Source: Herpetosiphonaceae bacterium (GTDB lineage: Bacteria > Chloroflexota > Chloroflexia > Chloroflexales > Herpetosiphonaceae). From it: a stretch of 33,815 bases of DNA. The stretch covers positions 1 through 33,815 of the forward strand of contig JABXJS010000030.1 in assembly GCA_013538855.1 (NCBI GenBank), in the 5' to 3' direction. A program made the translations under genes and the position numbers. The stretch's first letter is position 1. Each line of letters begins with the position of its first letter. The notes under the pieces are model-generated. The model did no database searches and was not told where the DNA came from. It worked only from the letters and a program-made list of their open reading frames with translations. This document shows, in pieces, positions 2,184 through 15,992 of this stretch.

Positions 2184-2981
2184 TCAAAGTGCGCGCTGTG
2201 CGCCAACGATGATCGGCGTGCCATCGGTTGGGTCGTGCAGCAGCGTGCATTGAACGTCATAGAGCTGACGGATCAGCGCAGGCGTTATGATCGCACGTGG
2301 CGCACCAGTGGCGATGACGCTGCCAGCGCGCAGGGCGATCATATGATCAGCGTAGCGACAGGCGCTCACCAGATCGTGGACGACCATCACTACTGTCTTG
2401 CCTGCCCGTGTCAGCGTGCGAATAAGCTCAAACACTTCGATTTGATGGCCGAGGTCCAGCGCCGCCGTCGGCTCATCTAGAAGCAGCAGCGGCGTGGACT
2501 GCGCTAAGGCCATGGCGATCCACGCGCGCTGGCGCTGGCCGCCGGAGAGCGTGGTCAGCGGGCGCTCGGCGAGGTCGGCTAGCCCGGCGGTGTGCAGCGC
2601 ATCGGTGACGGCCGCCTGATCTTCCGGTGACCACTGGCGCAGCAGCCCCGTGTGCGGATGGCGGCCAAAGCGCACGAGGTCGGCCACTGAAAGGCCGTCG
2701 GGGGCCAGCACGTGCTGTGGCAATAGCGCCAGCTGCCGGGCCAGTTCGCGCGGTACGAGGCGCTGAATGGCACGGCCGTTGAGGATGATCTGGCCCTGCT
2801 CAGGTGCGTGCAGCCGTGCTAGTCCGGCCAGCAGCGTGGACTTGCCGCAGCCGTTGGGTCCGATGATCGCCGTTACTTGATGTGCTGGAATGGTCACACT
2901 GACAGCGTCGAGCACCACCGACTGGCGGTAGGCCAGGCGTAGCGCGTGCGCCGCCAATGCCGCAGAGGTCGAGTTAGGCAT
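2184..2981 (-). CDS. Iron-siderophore ABC transporter ATPase (FepC/FecE-like)
   Basis: The 265-aa cytoplasmic ATPase powers import of the iron-siderophore complex. Walker A is GPNGCGKS (41-48), the ABC signature is LSGGQRQR (145-152), Walker B is LLLLLDEP (165-171) and the switch histidine is H202 in VVHDL. The gap of about 100 residues between Walker A and the signature is normal for the FepC/FhuC subfamily. The ATG overlaps the end of the upstream permease by 8 nt, and AAGGAG lies 6 nt upstream, so translation is coupled. A catecholate substrate is inferred from the operon, not from this sequence. Confidence 0.95.
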   Translation of the reverse strand: MPNSTSAALAAHALRLAYRQSVVLDAVSVTIPAHQVTAIIGPNGCGKSTLLAGLARLHAPEQGQIILNGRAIQRLVPRELARQLALLPQHVLAPDGLSVADLVRFGRHPHTGLLRQWSPEDQAAVTDALHTAGLADLAERPLTTLSGGQRQRAWIAMALAQSTPLLLLDEPTAALDLGHQIEVFELIRTLTRAGKTVVMVVHDLVSACRYADHMIALRAGSVIATGAPRAIITPALIRQLYDVQCTLLHDPTDGTPIIVGAQRAL

Positions 2982-4074
2982 TCAAGGCTCCTTGGGGTGT
3001 GCGCAGCAGCACCCATAGCACGTATGGACCGCCAACTAGAGCGGCGACAATGCCAACAGGAAGCTCGCTCGGCGCACATAGCGTGCGGCCAGCCAGATCG
3101 GCGAGCATGGTCAGGCTGGCTCCGGCTAGTCCGGCGGCGAGCACCGGCACGCTGCGTGGCCCGGCCAGCCGTCGGGCCAGCTCCGGCGCAGCAAGACCGA
3201 TGATGCCGACCGGGCCGATAACCGCAACCGCCAAGCCGGTGAGCAGCCCGGCTAGCGCGATGGCCCCGACGCGCAGCTGTGTGATGCGCACGCCCAAGCT
3301 GCGCGCAACCGGCTCGGGCAGCCGAGCCACGTTGAGCGCAGCGCCAAGCACTAGCGCCAGCGGCGTGAGCACCAGCAGGCTCCAGCCAAGCAGCGCCAGG
3401 GTTGGGCCAGCGCGGTTGTTGAGCGTGCCAACTGTCCAGGGGTAGGCTTGATTAGCGGCATCGATTGGCGCACGGGCCAGCATGATGTTCGTTGCCGCGC
3501 CACAGATAGCGCCGAGGCCCATGCCGGTGAGCAGAAAGCGGTAGCCGCGGGTGTCGCCAGGTCCGCTGAGCGCAAAGACGAGCGCGAGCATGCTCAGTGC
3601 GCCGGTTAGGGCAAAGGCCGCCGGGGCCAGGCTGGTGCTGACGCCAACTACCGAGGCCACGGCAAAGGCTGTTGCGGCATTGTCGATGCCCAGCGTGGTG
3701 GGCGTGGCCAGCCGATTGCGCGCCACCGTCTGCAGCAGGCATCCGGCCATGCCCAGCGCTGCTCCGGCGGCGGCTCCAGCAAAAACACGCCCTAGCCGCA
3801 GCTGGCGCACCACCAGCGTGGTTGGCGCATCGGCAGCGCCGAGCAGCGCGGCGATCACCCGCCCTGGCGGAATGCGGACACTGCCCTGGCCAAGGCTGAG
3901 CGCTGCCACCGCTGCGCCGAGCAGCGCCAGTGCGAGCAGCGCCAGCATGCCCCGGCGCTCAATGAGGACGCTCAGGCCGCGCCAGTGCAGCCGCCAGTAG
4001 CCGCGTGGTTGGCGGGGCGGGCTGGCGGGCGGGCGGGCACGGAGCACGGACGGCTGCGCACGTGTGTCACTCAC
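2974..4074 (-). CDS. FecCD-family siderophore permease (FepG-like), GTG start
   Basis: The 366-aa inner-membrane permease of the BtuC/FecCD family is rich in hydrophobic helices (about nine or ten). It carries the family signatures GRVFAGAAAGAALGMAG in the first third and IGPVGIIGLAAPELARRL near residue 275, the loop that contacts the ATPase. The frame is open 14 codons further upstream, but GGAGG at 4079-4083 points to GTG 4074. The start lies 10 nt after the stop of the partner permease. The N-terminus before the first helix is Arg/Pro-rich and cytoplasmic. It should form a heterodimer with the neighbouring permease. Confidence 0.92.
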   Translation of the reverse strand: MSDTRAQPSVLRARPPASPPRQPRGYWRLHWRGLSVLIERRGMLALLALALLGAAVAALSLGQGSVRIPPGRVIAALLGAADAPTTLVVRQLRLGRVFAGAAAGAALGMAGCLLQTVARNRLATPTTLGIDNAATAFAVASVVGVSTSLAPAAFALTGALSMLALVFALSGPGDTRGYRFLLTGMGLGAICGAATNIMLARAPIDAANQAYPWTVGTLNNRAGPTLALLGWSLLVLTPLALVLGAALNVARLPEPVARSLGVRITQLRVGAIALAGLLTGLAVAVIGPVGIIGLAAPELARRLAGPRSVPVLAAGLAGASLTMLADLAGRTLCAPSELPVGIVAALVGGPYVLWVLLRTPQGALNA

Positions 4075-4078
4075 AGGA

Positions 4079-4083
4079 CCTCC
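4079..4083 (-). promoter_or_regulatory. Ribosome binding site for the GTG-start permease
   Basis: Read leftward, GGAGG ends 4 nt before GTG at 4074. The spacing is tight, but no alternative start nearby has a comparable site. Confidence 0.6.
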
Positions 4084-4084
4084 G

Positions 4085-5092
4085 CTATAAGCTCGGCAGG
4101 CGCTGGCGGCGCACAACGAGCACTAAAACAGGCGCGCCGATGAGCGCGGTAACTACGCCTAGCGGCGTCTCGGCTGGGCTGGCGACGAGGCGGGCCAGCG
4201 TGTCGGCCAGCAACACGAAGCTTGGCCCAAGGGCGAGCGCCACTGGCAGTGCGCGGCGAATATCCGGCCCGGCCAGCCAGCGGGCTGCCAGCGGCACGAC
4301 GAGGCCGACGAAGCCAACTGGTCCAGCCATAGCGGTGGCTGCGCCGACCAGCAGCGCCACACACCCAACAACGCTGGCGCGGATCAGCTGCGGGTGCTGT
4401 CCCAGCCCGCGCGCCACCTGCTCGCCGAGCGCCAGCGCCGCCAGCGGCCGGGCAACCACGGCGGCTCCGATCAGCCCGAGGCCAACAGCTGGCAGCGCTG
4501 GCATGACCTGCGCGAGCGAGCGCCCGGCGATGCCGCCGATGGTCCAGAAGCGCACCTCGTCGGCTGTGCGCTGATCAAACAGCAGGATGGTCGCGGAGCT
4601 AGCGGCGAGGATGCTCGCCAGCGCCGCGCCCGCCAGGACTAGCCGGACCGGGTCATCGCCGCGGCCGCTGAGCCGTGCAGCGCCAAGCACGAGCGCACAG
4701 CCAAGCAGCGCGCCGCCGATTGCCACGATAATGTGCAGATGACCAAGACCGAGGGCGATTGCGATGACCACAGCGGTGGCTGAGCCAGCGCTAACCCCCA
4801 ACAGACCTGGCTCGGCCAACGGATTGCGCGCCGCTGCCTGGAGCATGGCCCCGCCGCCGGCCAGGGCCAGCCCGACAAGCACGGCAATGAGTGTGCGCGG
4901 CAGGCGCAGCGTAAGCACCACCAGCCGGGCCTGAGCATCGCCGCCACCGCCGAGCGCAGACCATGCCTCCAGCGGTCCCACAGCGCCAGCGCCTAGCCCA
5001 ATGCTTGCAGCGACGCTCAGCAGCAGCAGCACTGCGCATAGCAGTGTCAGCTGGGAACTGGGCTTGATCGATTGCGGGCGTTCAAGCGCCAT
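4085..5092 (-). CDS. FecCD-family siderophore permease (FepD-like)
   Basis: The 335-aa multi-helix permease pairs with the downstream permease. It contains the family signatures LPRTLIAVLVGLALAGGGAM and NPLAEPGLLGVSAG in the first third, and MAGPVGFVGLVVPLAARWL near residue 265, the coupling loop for the ATPase. The first helix follows a short cytoplasmic N-terminus. A GGGAGG Shine-Dalgarno sequence stands before ATG 5092. The gene follows the substrate-binding protein by 21 nt. Length and motif order are typical of FepD/FhuB half-permeases. Confidence 0.94.
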   Translation of the reverse strand: MALERPQSIKPSSQLTLLCAVLLLLSVAASIGLGAGAVGPLEAWSALGGGGDAQARLVVLTLRLPRTLIAVLVGLALAGGGAMLQAAARNPLAEPGLLGVSAGSATAVVIAIALGLGHLHIIVAIGGALLGCALVLGAARLSGRGDDPVRLVLAGAALASILAASSATILLFDQRTADEVRFWTIGGIAGRSLAQVMPALPAVGLGLIGAAVVARPLAALALGEQVARGLGQHPQLIRASVVGCVALLVGAATAMAGPVGFVGLVVPLAARWLAGPDIRRALPVALALGPSFVLLADTLARLVASPAETPLGVVTALIGAPVLVLVVRRQRLPSL

Positions 5093-5113
5093 GTGGCACC
5101 TCCCTTGGGGCCG

Positions 5114-6088
5114 CTACTGCGGGCTAGCCGTCAGCTTGGCGATGTCGGCGAGCATGGCCTGCATGGCGAGCGGGCCGTAGGCGCTGCTCCAAAGCTGGGC
5201 GCTCACTGGCACGACTTGGCCGGCTTGGCTGGCCCTGAGCTGGCTGAACACTGGCTGCTGCTTGGCGGCGGCCAGCGCCTGGTCGCCCTCGGCGTTGAAG
5301 GTGGCCACCAGCAGCCAGTCGGTGTCGATCTGGCTGAGCTGCTCTAGGCTGATGATGTCGGTGTGTGGTGTTGCGCTGCCTAGGTCGGTGGCGATGCTCG
5401 GCAGGGTCATGCCGAGCGTCTCGAGCAGGCGCACGCCGGGAAGCAGCCGCCCGAGCACCAGCGGCCCCTGCGGCATCCAGCGGATGAGCGCACCGGTGGT
5501 GGCTGGCTTGAGCGCGAGCTGATCGCGCAGCTGCATAGTCTGGGTGTCGATGTCGGCGAGCAGCGCCTCTAGCTCGGCGGTGCGCCCGAGGGCGGCGGCG
5601 TACTCGCCAGTGGCGGCTTGCCAGTCGGCCATGCTGTTGCTGGGCACGATGGTTGGCGCGATGGCGCTGAGCGTTGTGTAGGTCTGCTCGTCAACGCGGC
5701 TGCTGGCGAGGATGAGGTCGGGCGCGGCGCTGACCACTGCCTCGATGTTGGTCTCGCCGGGGTTGCCGACGATGGCGATGTCTGGCACGCGCGCGGCGAG
5801 GTAGGGCGCGACGCCGGTCGAGAGCCGTGAGCTAAGCGCTCCGACTGGCACGACGCCGAGCGCCAGCGCCGTGTCGAGCGCGCCTTCGTCCAGGGTAACG
5901 ACGCGCTGCGGGGCGGCTGGAACGGCTACAGGGCCGTATTTTGTCGCCACAGAGCGGGTCGTCGCCGATCCTGCGGCTGGATCAGCTGGCATCGGCGTAG
6001 CCGTGGGCGTGGCCGCTCCGCACGCGACCAGACTTGCAAGCAGTACCACAACCAGCAACGAACGTAGACCGAATATATGTGTGTGCAT
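5114..6088 (-). CDS. Iron-siderophore substrate-binding lipoprotein (FepB/FecB-like)
   Basis: The 324-aa extracellular receptor of the transporter has a lipoprotein signal peptide with lipobox SLVAC, so Cys23 would be lipidated. A Thr/Pro/Ala linker follows, then a periplasmic-binding fold of the helical-backbone (FecB/TroA-like) class: PQRVVTLDEGALDTALALGV, NIEAVVSAAPDLIL and DTDWLLVATF are typical segments. A lipid-anchored binding protein and no outer-membrane receptor fits a cell without a classical TonB-receptor envelope. AAGGAGG lies 4-5 nt before the ATG. It is separated from the NRPS stop by 89 nt, the largest gap in the operon, which holds a 7-bp hairpin. Confidence 0.93.
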   Translation of the reverse strand: MHTHIFGLRSLLVVVLLASLVACGAATPTATPMPADPAAGSATTRSVATKYGPVAVPAAPQRVVTLDEGALDTALALGVVPVGALSSRLSTGVAPYLAARVPDIAIVGNPGETNIEAVVSAAPDLILASSRVDEQTYTTLSAIAPTIVPSNSMADWQAATGEYAAALGRTAELEALLADIDTQTMQLRDQLALKPATTGALIRWMPQGPLVLGRLLPGVRLLETLGMTLPSIATDLGSATPHTDIISLEQLSQIDTDWLLVATFNAEGDQALAAAKQQPVFSQLRASQAGQVVPVSAQLWSSAYGPLAMQAMLADIAKLTASPQ

Positions 6089-6108
6089 AGCACCTCCTTG
6101 GCTCTATT

Positions 6109-6136
6109 GCCGAGCAACTAGCGTTAATCGCTCGGC
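6109..6136 (-). other. Hairpin between the NRPS and transporter genes
   Basis: GCCGAGC (6109-6115) and GCTCGGC (6130-6136) form a 7-bp perfect stem with a 14-nt loop. No T-run follows on the leftward strand, so it is not a classic terminator. It could be an RNA-processing or attenuation point separating biosynthesis from transport, or it could be fortuitous. Confidence 0.4.
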
Positions 6137-6177
6137 TCAACATCCTAAAACAACCGCTTGAGTGTGGTTTAGATTTC

Positions 6178-9100
6178 CTAGCTATCTATTAATGCTGCTG
6201 GGTGCAGCGTGGCCGGAGCAGGCAGCAGGCCCATCCGCTGACCAGCGCGCAGATAGGCCGCGAACTGCTGCTGATCAATGGTCGGCAGCGTGATTCCATG
6301 GCGCGCTAGCGCCTGCGTAAGCTGGGTGGTTGCAAACTGTCCGACTGGCTCTGGCGCTGTCTCGGTGTGCACAAGGCGCTCGAAAAAAGCCAGCGTGCTG
6401 TGGGCCTGCGCGTCGGCTAGCGGGCGCAGCGCGGCGACCCATGCGGCGAGCGGCAGCCGCTGAAACTCATAGCCGTCTGCCGCGAGCCATTGGAACAGCG
6501 TGGTATAGCGTAGCGGCTCCGTCGCGAGGTTGTACACCTGGGCACCGGCCTGCGCCTGCTGCGCAAGCGCGACGATAACCTTGGCCACGCGATCAACGCT
6601 GCTCCAAACCTCGGCGATGTCGAGGTCTGGGAGGAGACCATGCGGCAGCCCGGCCTGCAGCATGCGCCAAAAAAGATCGTTGGCGTTGACAACGCTGCTG
6701 TGCGGCGCGCCAGCCACACGGCCGAGACGCCACACCGTCACCGGCAGGCCGCGCTCTGCCGCCTGCTCGAGCAGACGCTCGGCGGCCCACTTGCTCTGCG
6801 CATAGCCGTCGCGTAGGCCAGCGTGGGCTGGAATAAACGTTTCGGGAACGTGTGCGCTGAGCCGCTGCGGTGCAGCGACGGCCAGGGTGGAGATATGATG
6901 CAGCGGCGTGCAGCAGGTCAGGGCCAGCTGCACAAGCTGGCGCGTCGCCGCAACATTGAGCGGGCGCAGGCTGGCGTAGTCGCGCAGCACGCTGACGTTG
7001 GCCGCGCTGTGGATGATCGCAGTGCACGTCTCGGCCAGCGTGCGCCAGGCGGCGTGATCTAGCCCAAACTGCGGCAGGCTAAGATCGGCGGGCCAGGCTT
7101 CGACGCGCTCGGCCAGCCCAGCGGTGGGCAGATCGTAGCGGCGCAGGGTTGCGGCCAGTCGCTCGGCAGCGCTGGCGTGCGTGTCGGCGCGCACCAGGCA
7201 GATGATCTGGGCGCACGTGGTGTGTAGCAGCTCGGCAAGCAGATGTGCGCCGACAAAGCCGGTTGCTCCGGTCAGCAGCACACACTGCCATGGCTGCGCT
7301 GGGCGCTGCGGGCCAAGCTGGAGCGTGGGATCGAGCGTTGCGTCAGTGAGCAGCTGGCTCTGGATGTTGGCGGACGTGGTGGTGCCGTCGGCGAGCAGCT
7401 GGGTGAGTGCGGCCAGCGTTGGCGCTTGGAAGATCATCGCGGCGGTGATCTCGCGGCCAAGGCTGCGGCCAAGGTGGTTGGCAACCTGGATCACGTGGAG
7501 CGAGGTCGCGCCGAGCGCAAAAACATCGGCATCCGGCGGCAGCGGATCAGCGCCGAGCACGGCTGTCCAGGCGCTGCGAATCGCTGCCGCTAGGCTTGAG
7601 TCCACCTGTGCCGCCTGCGCTGGTGGCGCTTGCTCAAGGATGGCTTGGCGATTGATCTTGCCGCTTGTGCTGCGCGGCAGCTGACGGCGCACCAGCCACA
7701 CCTGCGGCACGACGGCGGCGGCAAGGTAGCGGCGGACGTGCTCACGTAGCGCTTGCTCTGTTGGCGCAGGATCGCGCAGCACGACCATAGCGATCAGGCG
7801 CTTGCCGCCAGCAGGCAGCACTTGGCCGACGACAGCCGCTGCACGGACGCTGGGATGCAGCAGCAGCACGTGCTCGATCTCGGCAGGCATGATGCGCTGG
7901 CCGCTGATTTTAAACTCAGCGTCGCTGCGGCCAATAAAGACCAGCTGGCCGTCGGCGCGGATGCAGGCGCGGTCGCCGGTGCGGTAGGCGCGCGGAGCGC
8001 CAGGCAGCTGCTCTAGCCGCACAAAGTGCTGCGCGGTCAGGTCTGGGCGGCGGTGGTAGCCGAGCGCCAAGCCTGCGCCAAGCAGGTACAGCTCGCCCTC
8101 TGCCTCGGGGGCCGCCGGGCGGCCGTCGTCAGCCAGCAGCAGCGTCTGCACGCCAGCCAGCGGTGTGCCGATGGGCACGCTGTGCTCGGCTGCGTGCAGC
8201 TCGGCGACCGTCGCCACCACGGTGGCCTCGGTAGGCCCGTAGCTGTTGAACAAGCGCACGCTAGGACTGACAGCGGCCAGCCAGCCGCGCACGCGCTCGG
8301 GCAGCGCCGCCTCGCCGCCGATGATCACGCTGTGCACGCTCGTCGGCAGCCGCACCAGGCCGTGGCTAAGCGCAGCGGCTAGCTCGTGCCAGAACGCCGT
8401 TGGCAGGTCGAGGACGCTGATCGCCTGGGCGGCGCAGCCGTCGACGAACTGCTGCATGGACTCGAGCATCTGCTCGCTGCGTACAACCAGCGTAGCCCCG
8501 GCGGCCAGTGTCACGATGATCTCCTCGATGCTCGCATCGAAGTGCAGCGGCGCGAACTGGAGCACCCGATCCGCTGGGCTGATGCCGTAGCGCGCGGCGG
8601 CGGCGGCGGCGAAGTTGCTCAGCGCGGCATGGCTGATCACCACGCCCTTCGGCGCGCCGGTGGAGCCAGATGTGTACATCACATAGGCTGGTGCGTCCCC
8701 CGCCAGCGGCGGCGGCGTATATGTCCCGCCAGCTGTGAGTGAATCGACGGCGATGTGGCGCACGCTGGCGGGCAGGTGCGTGAGCGTGGCGCTGGCGATC
8801 ACCGCGCAGGGCCGGGCATGCTCAATGATGGCGGCGCGGCGCGCGGCGGGCCACTGCGGATCAAGCGGCAGGTAGGTCGCGCCAGCCAGCAGCACCGCCA
8901 GGAGTGCGATGATGGCATCTGCGCTCCGCGGCAGGGCCACGCCCACTAGGCTCTGTGCGCCGACGCCGTGTTCGGCGAGCTGGGCCGCCCATGCCTGCGC
9001 CTGGCGCAGCAGCGTGGCGTAATCCCACGTCTGATCAGCGGCCACCAGCGCGGTGGTGCTCGGCTGATGCAGGGCGTGCTGCTGAATGCGTGCGAGCACA

Positions 9101-10443
9101 GACGGCGCAGCATCTGCCACTATACCGCCATCGAGCAGCGCGAGCGTCCAGGCTGGCGGCAGTGCCACCTGCGCCAGTGGCTGCTTCGGCTGTGCGAGCC
9201 AAGCCTGGACAAGCTGGGTGAAGCGCTGAGCATGGGCGGCGAGCGCTGCGTCCGAGTAGGCCAGCGGGTTGGCCTGGAGCCTGATCTCGACGCGCTCGGC
9301 GGCGCAGGTGATGTTGAAGGCGATATCATCGACTGGCCCGGCGGCGAGCGTGACGCTGCTGGCGCTAGCTGCGCCCAGCGCAAACGTGCGCGGAAACGGC
9401 ATGATGTTCACCACTGGCCCAACCATGCGCCGGTCTGTGCTGAGCAAGCCTAGCTCGCGGCGCAGGTGCTCGTGGCGGTAGCCAGCGTGGCGCTGCAGGG
9501 CGCTGCGCTCGGCGGCGACGCTAGCGCTAAGCTGGTGTAGATCGGCGCTGGCGTCAACCGGCAGACACAAGGGCACGATGTTCATGGCCATGCACGGCGT
9601 GCGTAGGCTGCTGGCGTCGCCACGGCCAAGCAGCGCCAAGCCGAGCACAGCGGCGTCGGCGGCGTTCCAGTGGGCCACGTAGGCCGCCACACAGGCGATC
9701 AGCGCATCGGCCCAGCTGATACGGGCGCTCGGCAGTGCTGCACTCAGGCGCGCCTGGAGATCGAGCGGCAGATCAAGCGCTAGCTGGCGGCTGTGCGGCT
9801 GCGCCAGCGCGGCGGTTGCACTCAGGCTCATGGCCTGCGGCTGGTTGGCGCAGCGATCATGCCAGAAGCGACGACTTGCTGCGGCCTGATCAGACTGCTG
9901 ATAGCGTGCGTCGGCTGCTTGGATGCTCGCCAAATCGCCCCACGCCGCTGGCGCAGGCGCGCCGCATGTCGCCTGGTTGTAGCGGGCGACGATGCGCTGA
10001 AAGAGCAGGGCGAAGCTATAGCCATCGAGGGCGATATGGTGCGCCCGCACGTAGCACCACGTTTGGTCCTGCGCCAGCGTGAGCAGGGCGACGGCGAACC
10101 ACTGGTCGTGCTCAAGATCGCAGCGCTGGGCGCGCTCGGCCTGCATCCACTCTAGCGCCGCAGCCTGCGGCGCGGCGGCCTGGCTGAAGTCATGGCCGAT
10201 GATGCGCCAGTGCCGCGGCTCGATGGACATTCCCGGTGCGCCATCACGCAGCACAATGCGGCCGTGCAGCGTCTCGGCCTCGGCGCAGGTCTGGCGCAGC
10301 GCGGCTGCCAGCGCATGCTGATCGACTGGCCCGTTGATGATCAGGTACTCGGCGGTGTTGTAGGCCGTATTAGTTGGGTCAAGCTGCTGCCCAGCCCAGA
10401 TGCCGGTCTGAGCTGCGGTGAGCGGGAGCCACTGCGCGCTCAT
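6178..10443 (-). CDS. mxcG: NRPS, C-A-PCP-reductase, myxochelin-synthetase-like
   Basis: A 1421-aa single-module nonribosomal peptide synthetase. The condensation domain (about 1-430) has the active motif HHIALDG at 135-141. The adenylation domain (about 445-935) has [16 protein letters not shown] and Lys929 in STSGKINR. The carrier domain (about 945-1020) has Ser981 in LGATSL for the phosphopantetheine arm. The C-terminal thioester reductase (about 1050-1421) has GATGFVG at 1059-1065 and the Y1214/K1218 pair. By hand alignment to GrsA, the pocket residues are D636, A637, E640, D679, I707, G709, S734, V742, V743 and K929. Two acidic residues suit a basic amino acid, most likely lysine. The same four-domain order is known for MxcG, which makes myxochelin from lysine and two DHB units. 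ATG 10443 overlaps the dhbB stop (ATGA). Confidence 0.92.
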
Positions 10444-11294
10444 ACGGCTGGCTCCGGGCTGGGCTGGCCGAAGCGCAGCGCATACCACGCGCGCAGCGTT
10501 GGCGCGCTGGCCAGCGCTGCGAGATCGGCGTTGCAGCCAGCGCTGCGCCAGCGCTCTGCGACCGTCATCAGGCGCAGCGAGTCAAGGCCCCAGTCGCGCA
10601 GGTCGTCATCGAGCGCGATGGATGCAGGCTCATCGAGCAGGTCGGCTAGCTCACGGCGGAGCTGAGTCAGGCCGAGCTGCTGCAGTAGCCTGGCGGTATC
10701 TGTGACGACGGCGCAGCGTCCGGCGGCGTAGCGCAAGGCCCAGCGGTGCTCCTCGGCGCTGAAGTCGGCAACAGCATCGGCGACAAAGAAGGGTGCAATA
10801 TCGTGCATGAAGGCGTCGCAGGCCGTGAGCAGGCAGCCAAGATGGGCGTAGACGCCGCAGATAATCAGCTGGTCGCGGCCAAGCGCACGCAGGCGCTCGG
10901 CAAGGTCGGTGCGCTGAAAGGCGCTGTAGCGCCACTTGGTCAGCACAAGCTCATCGGGCTGTGGCTGGAGGTCTGTGATGATTGCCGCCTGCTGACCGGT
11001 GGCCAGTCCTGCGCCCCAGAAATCGCGCAGCAGGCCGCGCTCGGCGGGGGCTTGGTCGCCAGGCTGGGTCGAGAAGATCACGGGCATGCCAGCGGCGCGG
11101 GCATGGCGGCGTAGGTCGGCGATGGCTGGCACAACGCTGCGGATTGGCTCGTGCTGTGCAGGAAACGCCGCCACGAAGTAGTGCTGCATGTCGTGGATGA
11201 GCAGCGCCGCACGGGCGGGATCGGGCGTCCACCCTGCGCGGCTGGCTGGCAGCGCAGCGGGCAGTGGATATGGGTCGATATGGGGCAGGGCCAT
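10440..11294 (-). CDS. dhbB: Isochorismatase with aryl carrier domain
   Basis: The 284-aa bifunctional protein (EntB/DhbB/MxcF type) cleaves isochorismate to 2,3-dihydro-2,3-dihydroxybenzoate and pyruvate, and carries activated DHB. The N-terminal hydrolase (about 1-210) has LLIHDMQ with D35, LTKWRYSAF with K120, and ICGVYAHLGC, where EntB enzymes also lack the usual catalytic cysteine. The C-terminal aryl carrier (about 210-275) has GLDSLR, with Ser239 as the phosphopantetheine site. The protein should pass DHB to the condensation domain of the next gene, with which it overlaps by 4 nt. AAGGAG precedes the ATG. Confidence 0.95.
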   Translation of the reverse strand: MALPHIDPYPLPAALPASRAGWTPDPARAALLIHDMQHYFVAAFPAQHEPIRSVVPAIADLRRHARAAGMPVIFSTQPGDQAPAERGLLRDFWGAGLATGQQAAIITDLQPQPDELVLTKWRYSAFQRTDLAERLRALGRDQLIICGVYAHLGCLLTACDAFMHDIAPFFVADAVADFSAEEHRWALRYAAGRCAVVTDTARLLQQLGLTQLRRELADLLDEPASIALDDDLRDWGLDSLRLMTVAERWRSAGCNADLAALASAPTLRAWYALRFGQPSPEPAV

Positions 11295-11326
11295 ACGGTC
11301 TCCTTAGTCTAGAACACGCTATGCGA

Positions 11327-12967
11327 TCACCGGCTGCGGCGGCTGTGGGCCTGGGCGGCGGTCAACTGGTCGCGCAGCTGGCGCTTGTCGATCTTGCCAA
11401 CCGGCGTGGTTGGCAGCGCATCGACCACGCGGATTACATCAGGGATTTTGTAGTCGGCGAGGCCGCGGCTGCGCAGAAATGCGGCGATGGTCGGGCGATC
11501 AATGCCCGCCACGCTGGTCACGATCACGGCACAGGCGCGCTCGCCAAGCCACTGATCGGGCACCGCCACCAGCGTGGCCGCCTGGATGTGTGGATGGGCA
11601 AGCAAGTGCTGCTCAACCTCTGCGGCGGCGATCTTTTCGCCGCCACGGTTGATCTGGTCTTTGCTGCGCCCAACCACGACGAGATACCCGTCGGCGGTCA
11701 TGCGCACAAGATCGCCGGTGCGGTAGAAGCCATCGGCGGTGAAGGCGTGGCGGTTGTGCTCTGCGGCGCGATAGTAGCCGCGGATGGTGTACGGGCCGCG
11801 TGTGAGCAGCTGGCCTGGCGCGCCTGGAGCCACATCGCGATCCTCGGCATCAACGATGCGCAGCTCGTCCGCAGGCGACAGCGGGCGACCCTGCGTCGTC
11901 CACACGCGCTCGAGGGGATCGTCGAGGCGGGTGTAGTTGACTAAGCCCTCGGCCATCCCGTAGACCTGCTGCAGTCGACAGCCAAGCACGCTGGTGATGC
12001 GCTCGGCGGTTGTGCGGTCGAGCGGCGCGCCGCCAACTTGCAGCACGTCAAGGCTGGCCAGTTGCTGTTGGTGGCTGGGGGCCGCCTCCAGCCACAGCCG
12101 CGCTAGCGGCGGCACCAGCGCTGTGATCGTGACGCGCTCTTGCGCAATCAGCCCAAAGGTGTGTGTCGGGCTTGGCTGCGGCGCAATCACCACACATCCG
12201 CCAGCCGCTAGCGTGCCGAGCGCGCCCGGCGAGCTGAGTGGAAAGTTGTGGGCCATGGGCAGCGCACACAGATAGACACTGGCGCGGCTGAGCTGGCATA
12301 CGCTAGCGCTGGCCTCTACAGAGTAGAGATAGTCGTTGTGGGTGCGCGGGATGAGCTTGGGCGTGCCGGTGCTGCCGCCAGATAGCTGAAATAGCGCCAC
12401 TGCCGCTGCGCTCGCTGGCGCAAAGCTGGTCGGCTCAGCATCAACGCTGGCCAGTGGGATAAACGGGTGCTGCGCACCGTCGAGGATGACAGAGCGCAGA
12501 CTCGGGCAGCACGCGCGTAGGGCGCTGGCGAGCGGTCGATAGTCATAGCCTGCCGCGTCGGCCGCGCCGATGTAGGCCACCGCCGCACTCTGCGCACAGA
12601 AGCTGCCGATCTCCGCCAGCCGCTGGGCAGGCAGCGCCAGCACCGGTAGCGCTCCGCAGCGCAGCAGCGCAAAAAACACCACGAGCCACTCGGCGCAGTT
12701 GGGCAGCTGCACGACGACGCGCGCGCCTGGCTGAATGCCGAGCGTTTGCAGCCCCGCCGCCAGCCGATCCACGCGCGCATCAAGCTCGCGATAGCTCCAG
12801 CGGCGCTTGCCACACACCAGCGCGAGATCAGCGCCAGAGCGCGCAGCCCACGTGCGCAGGGCATCAGCGAGCGTTTGATCGCGCCAGTAGCCAGCAGCGC
12901 GGTAGGCGGCGGCGATCTCCTGCGGCCAGGCGACGGTGCCGTCGAGACCAAGCGTTGCGGCGCTCAT
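11327..12967 (-). CDS. dhbE: 2,3-dihydroxybenzoate-AMP ligase
   Basis: The 546-aa stand-alone adenylating enzyme (EntE/DhbE/MxcE type) activates DHB with ATP and loads it onto the aryl carrier of DhbB. Visible motifs are the P-loop SGGSTGTPK (196-204), [11 protein letters not shown] with Asn241 (typical of aryl-acid ligases), YGMAEG (336-341), YRTGD (415-419), RGGEKI (441-446) and the catalytic Lys525 in TPVGKID. The length fits the family. The start overlaps the stop of dhbC by 4 nt (ATGA) and has AGGAGG upstream. A salicylate specificity cannot be excluded from sequence alone, but the neighbouring dhbA argues for DHB. Confidence 0.95.
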
Positions 12968-14145
12968 AGCAGCTCCTCCTGATCTAGGCCAAGCGCCAGC
13001 AGCATGGTGCGGAGCTTGCCAGCGGTCTCGACTAGCTCTGCGTGTGGGTCAGAATCTGCGACGATGCCTGCTCCTGCGTAGAGGTGCAGTGTGCGATCAA
13101 CGATCTCAGCGCAGCGAATGGCGATGGCCCACTCGCCGTCGCCGTGCGCATCACACCAGCCGACAAGTCCAGTGAAAAAGCCGCGCTCAAACGGCTCCAG
13201 CCCGTCGATGGCCTGGCGGGCGGCGGCTGTCGGCGTACCACACACTGCCGGTGTCGGATGCAGCGCTAGCGCTAGCTCTAGCGCCGAGGGGCCGTCGGCG
13301 CGCAGCTGCCCGGTAATGGATGTGGCGAGGTGCCACATTGTCGGGGTGGCGACCAGCGTTGGCGCTGGAATATGCAGCTGCGTGCAGAGCGGGCCGAGCG
13401 TTGCTGCGACCGCCTCGACCACCACCGCGTGCTCGTGGAGATCCTTGCTTGATCGGAGCAGGTCGGCGGCGCGGCGCGCGTCCGTGTGTGGATCGGTGGC
13501 CCGTGCAATTGAGCCAGCCAGCGGCTGGGCGCTGATCTGTAGCCCGTGCCGTGCGATCAGCAGCTCGGGGCTGGCACCGATGAGCGTGCGTCTGGTGGGC
13601 AGCGGCACGGCGAAGGTGTAGCCGCGCTGGTTGTGCTGGGCCAGGTTGGCGAGTATGGCGCGGAGGTCGAGCGGTGCATCAGCCTGGATGTGCAGGCCGC
13701 GGGCCAGCACAACCTTGTGCAGTGCACTGGTGCGAATCTGGGCCACGGCTTGGGCGACACTGGCGGTGTAGGCTGTTGGCGTTGGTACAGGCGTGATCGA
13801 TGCGGTGCGCCACGCCGTCAGCGGCTGTGGCTGGCTATCGCCGCACAGCGGGCCGGCGTGCTCGATGCTGCTGGGCAGCGCCAGGTAGGCGGGCGCGCTT
13901 GGCTCAAATGGCACTGCGCCGATGACCAGCGGGTTGTGCTCGCCCATACGCTTGGCGCGCTCCAGCGCGGCGCGCACGCTGGCGGCAAGGCCATCAGCCT
14001 GGCTTTGGGCGATCAGGTCGATATAGCGGCAGTGGGCCAGCAAGGTCTGCTGCGGCGCAGCAAAGCAGATCGCCGCTGCGCCATCGTAGCGCTCGATCAG
14101 CTTCCAGGCTGCGGCTGAATCAGCCATGGTGGACACAGTCGTCAT
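12964..14145 (-). CDS. dhbC: Isochorismate synthase
   Basis: The 393-aa chorismate-utilising enzyme (EntC/DhbC/MxcD type) converts chorismate to isochorismate, the first committed step to DHB. Motifs include [26 protein letters not shown], the metal-binding region around [21 protein letters not shown] and [14 protein letters not shown]. The frame is open 69 codons further upstream, but that part lies inside the DAHP synthase gene. ATG 14145 has AAGGAG before it, forms an ATGA overlap with the upstream stop, and gives the usual family length. Confidence 0.95.
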
Positions 14146-15023
14146 TGGCCGACTCCTTGGGCTAGGCGGGCTGGCGCTGGAGCAGCGACTGCGCGCTGGT
14201 TGATCTGCTGCATGAGGCGGGCAAAGTTGGCGTGAGTCAGCGACTGCGGCCCATCGGATGCAGCATGGGCTGGATCGTGGTGCACTTCGATCATCAGGCC
14301 GTCGGCTCCGGCGGCCAGCCCGGCCAGTGCCAATGGCGCAACCAGATGCCATGCGCCAGTGCCGTGGCTTGGATCGACAATCACTGGCAGGTGGCTACAG
14401 TGCTTGATCAGCGCGACGGCGTTCAGGTCTAGGGTGTTGCGTGTGGCGGTCTCGAAGGTGCGGATACCGCGCTCGCAGAGTACGACCTGCTCGTTGCCGG
14501 TGGCGAGCACGTACTCGGCGGCGAGCAGCCACTCCTCGATGGTGGCGGCGAGGCCACGCTTGAGCAGCACCGGCTTGCCGCTGCGCCCGGCTGCCTCCAG
14601 CAGCGCGACGTTATGCATATTGCGTGCGCCAATCTGGAGCATGTCGGCATGCTCGGCGACAAGCGCGACATCGCCTGGCGCAAGCACCTCGGTGACGATC
14701 GGCAGCCCGGTGTGTGCGCCGGCCTGCGCCAGCAGCCGCAGTCCGACCGCGCCGAGGCCGCGAAAGGCGTATGGCGAGGTGCGCGGCTTGAATGCGCCAC
14801 CGCGCAGCATGTGTGCGCCTGCCGCAGCCACGGCCTCGGCGGTGTGCATGAGCTGCGCCTGTGACTCCACAGAACATGGCCCAGCGATGACCACTGGCGC
14901 GGGGCCGCCGAAGGCGACGTGCCCAACCTGCACCACGCTGCGTGTGTGGTTGGCGCGCTGGGCGGCAAGCGGATACGGGCTAGATTGGGGTGGATCGGTT
15001 GGTGTCCAGACCTCTAGGTCCAT
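14142..15023 (-). CDS. aroF: DAHP synthase, class I-beta catalytic core
   Basis: The 293-aa 3-deoxy-7-phosphoheptulonate synthase catalyses the entry step of the shikimate pathway (PEP plus erythrose-4-phosphate). Motifs are AGPCSVES (47-54), [10 protein letters not shown] (78-87), IGARNMHN (131-138), LLKRG (153-157) and VDPSHGTG (216-223). It has only the barrel: there is no N-terminal ferredoxin-like or chorismate-mutase domain of the kind that gives feedback control in many relatives. Its place between dhbA and dhbC suggests that it raises chorismate supply when the siderophore is made. It lies 15 nt after dhbA, with AAGGAG before the ATG. Confidence 0.94.
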
Positions 15024-15038
15024 TGGTGCTCCTTCGGC

Positions 15039-15818
15039 TTATGCGCCGAGTGTTGCGCCGCCATCAATGCGCAGATCGTGCAGCGTGATGTGGCGCGCGT
15101 CTTCGGAAAGCAGGAAGATCACCGCCGCAGCGATGTCCGTGGGCTGGGCGATGCGACCGAGCGGGATGCCAAGGCGAAAGTCGTGCGGCGACCCGGCGAT
15201 CGCTGCCTCCGCGCCAGCGGCGGCGGACCACAGCGCGCGCTGCATGGCTGTATCGGTGGAGCCAGGCGAGACCACATTGCAGCGGATGTTGGCCGCCGCT
15301 AGCTCCAGCCCGAGCGCGAGCGTGAGCGCTGTGGCTGCCGCCTTGGAGGCAGCATAGGCTGCCATGTGCATGCGCGGGACGCGGGCGGCGTTTGAGCTAA
15401 CGGTGACGATGCTGCCACGTCGGCGCGTGATCATCGGGCGGGCGACGGCGCGGCACACATGCAGCACTCCCGAGGCGTTGACCGCCCAGCAAGTCTCCCA
15501 GTCGTGGTTGGCCAGCTCCACAACTGGCGCGCAGCGCAGAATACCGGCGACATTGGCGACAAGGTTGATTGGCCCAAGCTGCTGCTCGATCTGTGTGACA
15601 GCCGCCTCAACTGCGCTAGCAGTGCGCACATCGACGACCAGCGGGCTAACGGCGGAGCCGTAGGTGCTGGCGAGGCGGTCGAGGCCCTGGCGGTTGATAT
15701 CGAGTGCGGCGACGTGCGCGCCACGCTCGACAAGGCCGCGAACCACTGCGGCCCCGATGCCGTCCGCTGCGCCTGTGACGAGGGCGATCTGCCCGTGCAG
15801 CTCTGCGTTTTTTGACAT
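15039..15818 (-). CDS. dhbA: 2,3-dihydro-2,3-dihydroxybenzoate dehydrogenase
   Basis: The 259-aa short-chain dehydrogenase oxidises 2,3-dihydro-DHB to 2,3-dihydroxybenzoate, normally with NAD. The cofactor motif is TGAADGIG (15-22), Asp40 in AALDIN favours NAD over NADP, NVAG is at 89-92, and the catalytic residues are around S141/S142, Y155 and K159. The family is broad, but the surrounding dhbC/E/B genes fix the role as EntA/DhbA/MxcC. The frame is open 18 codons upstream; ATG 15818 is chosen because GGGGAG precedes it and the length then matches DhbA. It is the first gene of the operon, behind a leader of about 140 nt. Confidence 0.93.
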
Positions 15819-15864: not shown

Positions 15865-15882
15865 GCGAACAAGGTCGTTCGC
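15865..15882 (-). other. Small hairpin in the siderophore operon leader
   Basis: GCGAAC (15865-15870) and GTTCGC (15877-15882) form a 6-bp stem with a 6-nt loop within the predicted 5' untranslated leader. It may add to leader structure; no T-run follows. Confidence 0.35.
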
Positions 15883-15916: not shown

Positions 15917-15955
15917 AAATAAAAACAATTTAGACGGTCTAAACTGTTTTTATTT
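15917..15955 (-). promoter_or_regulatory. 39-nt near-perfect palindrome, likely operator
   Basis: Two 19-nt arms surround a single central base at 15936 and differ at only one position. The core is TTTAGACGGTCTAAA (15929-15943), and the outer arms are A/T-rich in a GC-rich genome. It starts 1-2 nt downstream of the predicted transcription start, where a bound repressor would block initiation. An iron-responsive repressor is the natural candidate because the genes behind it make a siderophore, but the core does not match the Fur or DtxR/IdeR consensus as I recall them. The transcript would also fold into a long hairpin at its 5' end. Confidence 0.85.
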
Positions 15956-15963
15956 CGGGGCGC

Positions 15964-15992
15964 AGTATAGGCAGCAGCGGCTGTTTTGTCAA
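15964..15992 (-). promoter_or_regulatory. Sigma-70-type promoter of the siderophore operon
   Basis: Read leftward, the -35 is TTGACA (15987-15992) and the -10 is TATACT (15964-15969), with a 17-nt spacer. This is a perfect -35, a 5/6 -10 and ideal spacing. The start of transcription is predicted near 15957, giving a leader of about 139 nt before dhbA. Confidence 0.88.

Follow-up and report, generated by a model that had tools for sequence, protein, structure and literature searches.

A conserved palindrome at a siderophore promoter of Herpetosiphonaceae as a likely double operator for the iron-sulfur sensor SufR

Background

Fur or DtxR serves most bacteria as a direct sensor of iron. The locus considered here, a 33,815-nucleotide (nt) stretch of DNA from a Herpetosiphonaceae bacterium of the phylum Chloroflexota (contig JABXJS010000030.1 of assembly GCA_013538855.1; the whole stretch is henceforth the window), contains a near-consensus promoter followed by a 39-nt palindrome, and the operon downstream of this promoter codes for the synthesis of a myxochelin-like catecholate siderophore and for ferric-siderophore uptake. 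Comparison with related genomes leads us to consider it likely that the palindrome is a double operator of SufR, an iron-sulfur (Fe-S) sensor so far associated chiefly with the control of Fe-S cluster assembly genes, and that it controls the siderophore operon.

Results and discussion

The promoter and its palindrome

On the minus strand, the hexamers TTGACA (-35 element, 15987-15992) and TATACT (-10 element, 15964-15969) are separated by a 17-bp spacer; neither this combination nor a relaxed form of it occurs elsewhere in the window on either strand. The predicted transcription start lies near 15957, 7 nt past the -10 element, and puts at about +2 the palindrome (15955-15917 on the minus strand; AAATAAAAACAGTTTAGACCGTCTAAATTGTTTTTATTT), which reads AAATAAAAACAGTTTAGAC-C-GTCTAAATTGTTTTTATTT, i.e. 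two 19-nt arms that match at 18 of 19 positions around a single central base. Its score of 16 was not reached when the window, which has a G+C content of 65.5%, was simulated 200 times under a first-order Markov model (maximum 13), nor in 200 simulations at 78% A+T (maximum 15). The arrangement of promoter and singly mismatched palindrome, as read in the original prediction, is accordingly confirmed both in the sequence and by the simulations. The motif TTTAGACNGTCTAAA has one occurrence in the window when up to 3 mismatches are allowed (0.04 expected), and at up to 2 mismatches its only other match in the 6.3-Mb genome of the same bacterium (285 contigs; the source genome) is one 2-mismatch site at C237.

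Six genomes of the same family, all Herpetosiphon, hold the same operon as a syntenic block, with protein identities of roughly 50-73%; the source genome presumably represents a different genus of Herpetosiphonaceae. In their aligned dhbA promoters TTGACA-17-TATACT recurs in all six species and is followed by GAATAAAAACAGTTATATCCGACTAAATTGTGTTAATGA. A 68-bp block spanning the -10 element and the operator is invariant, and 100% of the positions of the 39-bp operator are invariant versus 6% of those in the distal upstream flank. Conservation in orthologous promoters, on which the original prediction was staked, is hence evident across these species. The Herpetosiphon palindrome is less perfect, yet the same positions are kept, including the window's one mismatched pair; because of this imperfection, a search of the Herpetosiphon operon loci for long perfect palindromes found none at the dhbA promoter. 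The conserved portion of the element consists of the A/T-rich outer arms ATAAAAACAG...CTGTTTTTAT, and the TTTAGAC...GTCTAAA core varies among relatives. The earlier emphasis on the palindrome therefore stands for its outer arms and not for its core, and the scan for TTTAGAC-N-GTCTAAA that had been suggested, run on the source genome and 100 relatives, was almost empty in the relatives because the core bases vary, with no match at up to one mismatch in any further genome from this family or this order.

Recurrence of the element at iron-uptake promoters in the family

A sequence-only model, based on the window site and its Herpetosiphon counterparts, was run against nine genomes of the family, refined, and rerun on the source genome and 200 relatives, with the target genes named by their Pfam and NCBIfam matches. 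The element was recovered upstream of genes for an imelysin-type EfeO with FTR1 (four loci, and one in the source genome), FTR1 in the source genome, FecCD and ATPase transport proteins (locus L155, with two sites), a Fe3+-type substrate-binding protein (SBP), a FhuF adjoining siderophore uptake genes, a PepSY_TM protein, an Aminotran_3 protein that is HemL-like by sequence (two loci), the 2-oxoacid:ferredoxin oxidoreductase KorAB, an FG-GAP-like protein (three loci) and a small membrane peptide (in the source genome and others). A TTGAC-N16-18-TATACT-type promoter precedes it at 16/16 sites examined, and the operator centre lies 25-30 nt past the -10 element at 15 of these and 19 nt past it at the remaining one. 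Save for a few weak matches, the motif is confined to Herpetosiphonaceae. These observations support the earlier proposal that the iron regulator of this lineage uses an operator unlike the Fur and IdeR boxes. At three more loci the refined search picked up the sufR-sufC-sufD promoter.

Two features of these loci deserve separate mention. In L155 (2493-2624) a succinate dehydrogenase operon is divergent from the FecCD transport operon; the two operators, spaced by about 95 bp, lie in between and could couple these operons. The first gene after the iron operator repeatedly encodes a one-helix membrane peptide of 32-53 amino acids, e.g. MADVIVGAVQVLGALMLLGTGFLFDRLRRKQTPNA.

sufR promoters carry single sites of the same type

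The sufR gene was located in 98 of 120 relatives; family genomes with an identified sufR have one copy each. The best NCBIfam match of the SufR protein from the source genome is the SufR family TIGR02702 (82.6 bits, E 3e-23), over nearly its full length, in keeping with an N-terminal winged-helix domain and a C-terminal Fe-S domain. The three cysteine ligands of the Fe-S cluster, C164-X12-C177-X27-C205, are invariant in 12 aligned SufR sequences; SufR of Mycobacterium tuberculosis needs C203/C216/C244, with the same C-X12-C-X27-C spacing (PMC6034842). Inspection of translations in three genomes (G006, G001 and G018) showed sufR to be followed by sufC and sufD-like genes. In each of the order's four families the sufR promoter has, directly upstream of its -35 element, the inverted repeat ATAAAAACAG-N6-CTGTTTTTAT, an N6-spaced repeat of the ACAG-N6-CTGT type at the regulator's own promoter.

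An independent comparison was afforded by a position weight matrix whose training set was restricted to the three families outside Herpetosiphonaceae and consisted of 17 of their sufR promoters. With this matrix the window palindrome provides both the best match of the window (28.3 bits at 15928-15953, ATTTAGACGG-N6-CTGTTTTTAT on the plus strand) and the second best (17.8 bits at 15919-15944), which overlap at an offset of 9 bp; the third scores 3.7. Two peaks exactly 9 bp apart were seen at 12/12 iron sites tested, the second being weak (1.6) at efeO of the source genome. In a covariance-model form of the same motif (R3), the window site is the only match in the source genome at E<=0.5, and the matches in other families are sufR promoters. 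Within the family, the sites at sufR itself score 18.8-27.3.

Elsewhere, a single sufR-type site (26.1) lies upstream of a gene for an Mrp/ApbC-like Fe-S carrier in one genome of another family. In Herpetosiphonaceae the -10 region of sufR is overlapped by another box, TATAATCATTCTC, which is Fur/PerR-like; both SufR and a Fur-family protein may therefore act on suf.

A proposed mechanism

We propose that SufR, as a winged-helix dimer carrying a [4Fe-4S] cluster, would read half-sites resembling ATAAAAACAG-N6-CTGTTTTTAT (ACnG-N6-CnGT), in which the key bases C and G are 11 bp apart. Two such sites would overlap in the iron operator (15917-15955 in the window) at the 9-bp offset, with strong outer half-sites ATAAAAACAG and CTGTTTTTAT and weak inner ones sharing the central TCnGA. 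The outer C-10 and G+10 are invariant in the iron operator, and the inner C-1 and G+1 are each present in 26/28 sequences, counting both orientations; the two sites therefore appear to interlock, C-10 belonging with G+1 and C-1 with G+10. Two cluster-bearing dimers would thereby cover the region from about +2 to +40 and keep this near-consensus promoter of the sigma-70 type shut as long as Fe-S clusters abound. Once iron or the supply of Fe-S clusters drops, loss of the cluster would release the promoter, and the operon for siderophore synthesis and uptake would be strongly transcribed. The single site abutting the -35 element of sufR would serve autoregulation. As the same switch is found at the EfeO/FTR1, FecCD, Fe3+ SBP, FhuF and hemL promoters, SufR would be the family-level iron regulator in Herpetosiphonaceae. 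The original prediction had listed the Fur, DtxR and TetR families; the likely regulator is instead an Fe-S sensor absent from that list.

Several observations weigh against this assignment. The site at the sufR promoter of the source genome is the weakest of its set (18.8), and the intergenic stretch directly behind fur1 reaches 19.0 in one Herpetosiphon genome and 17.9 in another. A regulon site is present in genome G003 (76% complete), in which no sufR was found. The SufR of the source genome, at 82.6 bits, falls below the cut-off of 178.8 for the cyanobacterial SufR equivalog and is therefore best described as a SufR-like protein, not one of the cyanobacterial type. The half-site ATAAAAACAG differs in its letters from the CAAC...GTTG of cyanobacteria, and the operator would therefore be a lineage variant. 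Finally, the inner half-sites are weak, which leaves room for one dimer on arms spaced by N15.

Alternative readings

The last of these points corresponds to an alternative in which a single SufR dimer occupies just the outer half-sites, spaced by N15, and no second dimer overlaps it. That the outer half-sites are the most conserved and the inner TCnGA half-sites degenerate would fit this arrangement, but the near-invariant C-1 and G+1 stand exactly 11 bp from the invariant outer G and C, as in the N6 sites, the two scoring peaks appear at every site tested, and sufR of Herpetosiphon itself has a CCGA half-site; we regard a single dimer as unlikely. A reading of the inverted repeat as an RNA or DNA structure, such as a terminator, an attenuator or a 5' hairpin, draws on the fact that it would be transcribed at the extreme 5' end and that its 19-nt arms could pair. 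At orthologous and sister sites, however, the letters are kept and the pairing decays (6-10 of 11 pairs in the inner arms, 0-8 of 8 in the outer arms), an A/T-rich stem directly at the start site is unlike a terminator, and the half-sites at sufR promoters, being upstream of the -35 element, are not transcribed. In view of the pairing decay and the position of the sufR half-sites we rejected the hairpin or terminator idea, which appears extremely improbable.

The remaining alternatives assign the element to another protein. Fur and DtxR families comprise the usual iron regulators, the source genome has two Fur homologues and one DtxR homologue, and the scores of 17.9-19.0 after fur1 would favor a Fur-family or DtxR-family repressor of the lineage. 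Nevertheless, these loci point elsewhere. In Herpetosiphon, the DtxR homologue adjoins a gene for a metal-binding protein resembling TroA/MntA-type SBPs and has its own box, TTTAGGTATGCCTAAA, located between the two genes; the proximity of this Mn/Zn-type SBP gene and the box point to a manganese regulator, probably MntR. Downstream of fur1 comes a gene for a metal P-type ATPase, and a 7-1-7 box, TTAGAATnATTCTAA, lies in the interval (five loci), an arrangement that suggests metal efflux and a regulator of the PerR type. The Fur2 gene adjoins a DprA-like gene, and its locus lacks a conserved match (6.3 at most). In the source genome the motif scores are below 0 at both Fur loci and 6.8 at the DtxR locus, as against 18.8 at the sufR locus. 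By inspection, the element lacks a Fur box (a 7-1-7 palindrome of the TGATAATnATTATCA type), the Fur1 region of the source genome having TTTAGAATGATTCT, and the promoter region lacks a DtxR/IdeR box resembling TTAGGTTAGCCTAACCTAA. A repressor of either family is thus a very unlikely reader of the element. Another Fe-S or redox regulator, of the Rrf2/IscR/RirA-like kind or a TetR protein, might bind both the sufR and the iron promoters, with SufR merely one of its targets: Rrf2 proteins occur in 9/9 family genomes, genome G037, from another family, has a weak match to the regulon model in the interval flanked by an Rrf2-family and a cupredoxin-like gene, and the Rrf2 proteins include RirA, whose regulation of iron depends on a [4Fe-4S] cluster (PMC6748827). 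Yet the conserved Rrf2 gene of the family is without a site (best score 6.3), other Rrf2 loci show scattered scores, among transcription-factor genes a strong conserved site was found at sufR alone, in 8/8 family genomes with a located sufR, and characterized SufR proteins bind the promoter of their own gene (PMC13421787); we consider such a regulator quite improbable. The Fur, DtxR and Rrf2 loci were hence rejected as sources of the regulator, showing either other boxes or no consistent site, and SufR is retained as the probable one.

The operon under control

The genes downstream of the promoter are all on the minus strand. The first encodes a dhbA-like 2,3-dihydro-2,3-dihydroxybenzoate (DHB) dehydrogenase of the short-chain dehydrogenase/reductase superfamily (15039-15818; its ATG is at 15818 and the listed open reading frame (ORF) extends to a TTG at 15872). 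It is followed by genes for an aroG-like 3-deoxy-D-arabino-heptulosonate 7-phosphate (DAHP) synthase (14142-15023; Pfam PF00793), the isochorismate synthase DhbC (12964-14145; PF00425), a dhbE-like 2,3-DHB-AMP ligase (11327-12967; PF00501), a dhbB-like isochorismatase-aryl carrier protein (10440-11294; PF00857, PF00550) and an MxcG-like non-ribosomal peptide synthetase (NRPS) of the myxochelin type with condensation, adenylation, peptidyl carrier and reductase domains (C-A-PCP-reductase; 6178-10488; PF00668, PF00501, PF00550, PF07993). The start of dhbC is probably at about 14145, because the listed ORF shows homology only from its residue 70 onward, and the dhbC and DAHP synthase genes probably overlap by ATGA at 14142-14145. 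The uptake genes encode a siderophore-binding protein (5114-6088; PF01497), two FecCD permeases (4085-5092 and 2974-4116; both PF01032) and a FecE/FepC-like ABC ATPase (2184-2981; PF00005); a gene for a DUF2218 protein (1856-2149; PF09981), also syntenic in Herpetosiphon, is the last of the conserved block. The DHB genes together with the C-A-PCP-reductase NRPS identify the cluster as one for a myxochelin-type catecholate. As a separate observation, this cluster in Chloroflexota (2184-15818) carries its own DAHP synthase gene.

The dhbA leaders of Herpetosiphon are long and contain conserved stretches, e.g. GCCTGATCGGTTAGGGAGCGT, about 80-190 nt past the operator, with no obvious counterpart in the window. 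These could be a second level of control.

Evolutionary implications and relation to known systems

The sequences make an evolutionary step legible: four families have single N6 sites at sufR, and one of them has overlapping double sites at its iron genes. We somewhat favor a scenario in which SufR, at first a repressor of suf only, was recruited in Herpetosiphonaceae as the cell's main iron regulator in place of Fur/DtxR. Its site would have been duplicated to give an overlapping operator for two dimers at strong promoters of siderophore and iron-transport genes, and iron would be sensed through Fe-S cluster status. If true, this would show a local suf repressor turning into a global iron regulator. 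The defined operator may be used to annotate iron regulons in Chloroflexota, a phylum with little regulatory work. We found no paper in the open literature tying SufR to Chloroflexota or to siderophore control; the RegPrecise Chloroflexi collection lay outside this search, and a prior SufR regulog prediction there is possible.

Cyanobacterial SufR shares with the present system a homologous regulator, the suf operon context, an operator at its own promoter, the N6 spacing and the conserved cysteine ligands. The cyanobacterial operator is CAAC-N6-GTTG (PMC13421787, PMC8593673), and these letters are not those of the consensus here, ATAAAAACAG-N6-CTGTTTTTAT. Published SufR is described as dedicated to suf, its targets being the suf genes plus ftrC (PMC13421787, PMC8593673), from which it is released when its cluster is lost in iron shortage (PMC13421787); in contrast, Herpetosiphonaceae have overlapping double sites at siderophore and iron-uptake promoters. 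In M. tuberculosis, SufR (Rv1460) likewise is encoded first in the suf operon, represses suf and has C-X12-C-X27-C ligands, but direct control of siderophore synthesis is not described in the available part of that report (PMC6034842).

The iron box of DtxR/IdeR, TTAGGTTAGCCTAACCTAA, was not found here, and the DtxR homologue is apparently a manganese regulator. In one respect DtxR/IdeR resembles the arrangement proposed for SufR, as two dimers bind overlapping palindromic sites at siderophore promoters. RirA of rhizobia is, by analogy, functionally the closest system: it is a [4Fe-4S] protein that represses iron-uptake genes at iron sufficiency and releases them on cluster loss (PMC6748827). 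However, RirA belongs to the unrelated Rrf2 family and uses the IRO box, unlike the candidate from the SufR/DeoR-like winged-helix family, and the likeness is one of convergence, not of membership. If the SufR assignment is true, Chloroflexota would provide a second, unrelated invention of Fe-S-based siderophore control besides rhizobial RirA.
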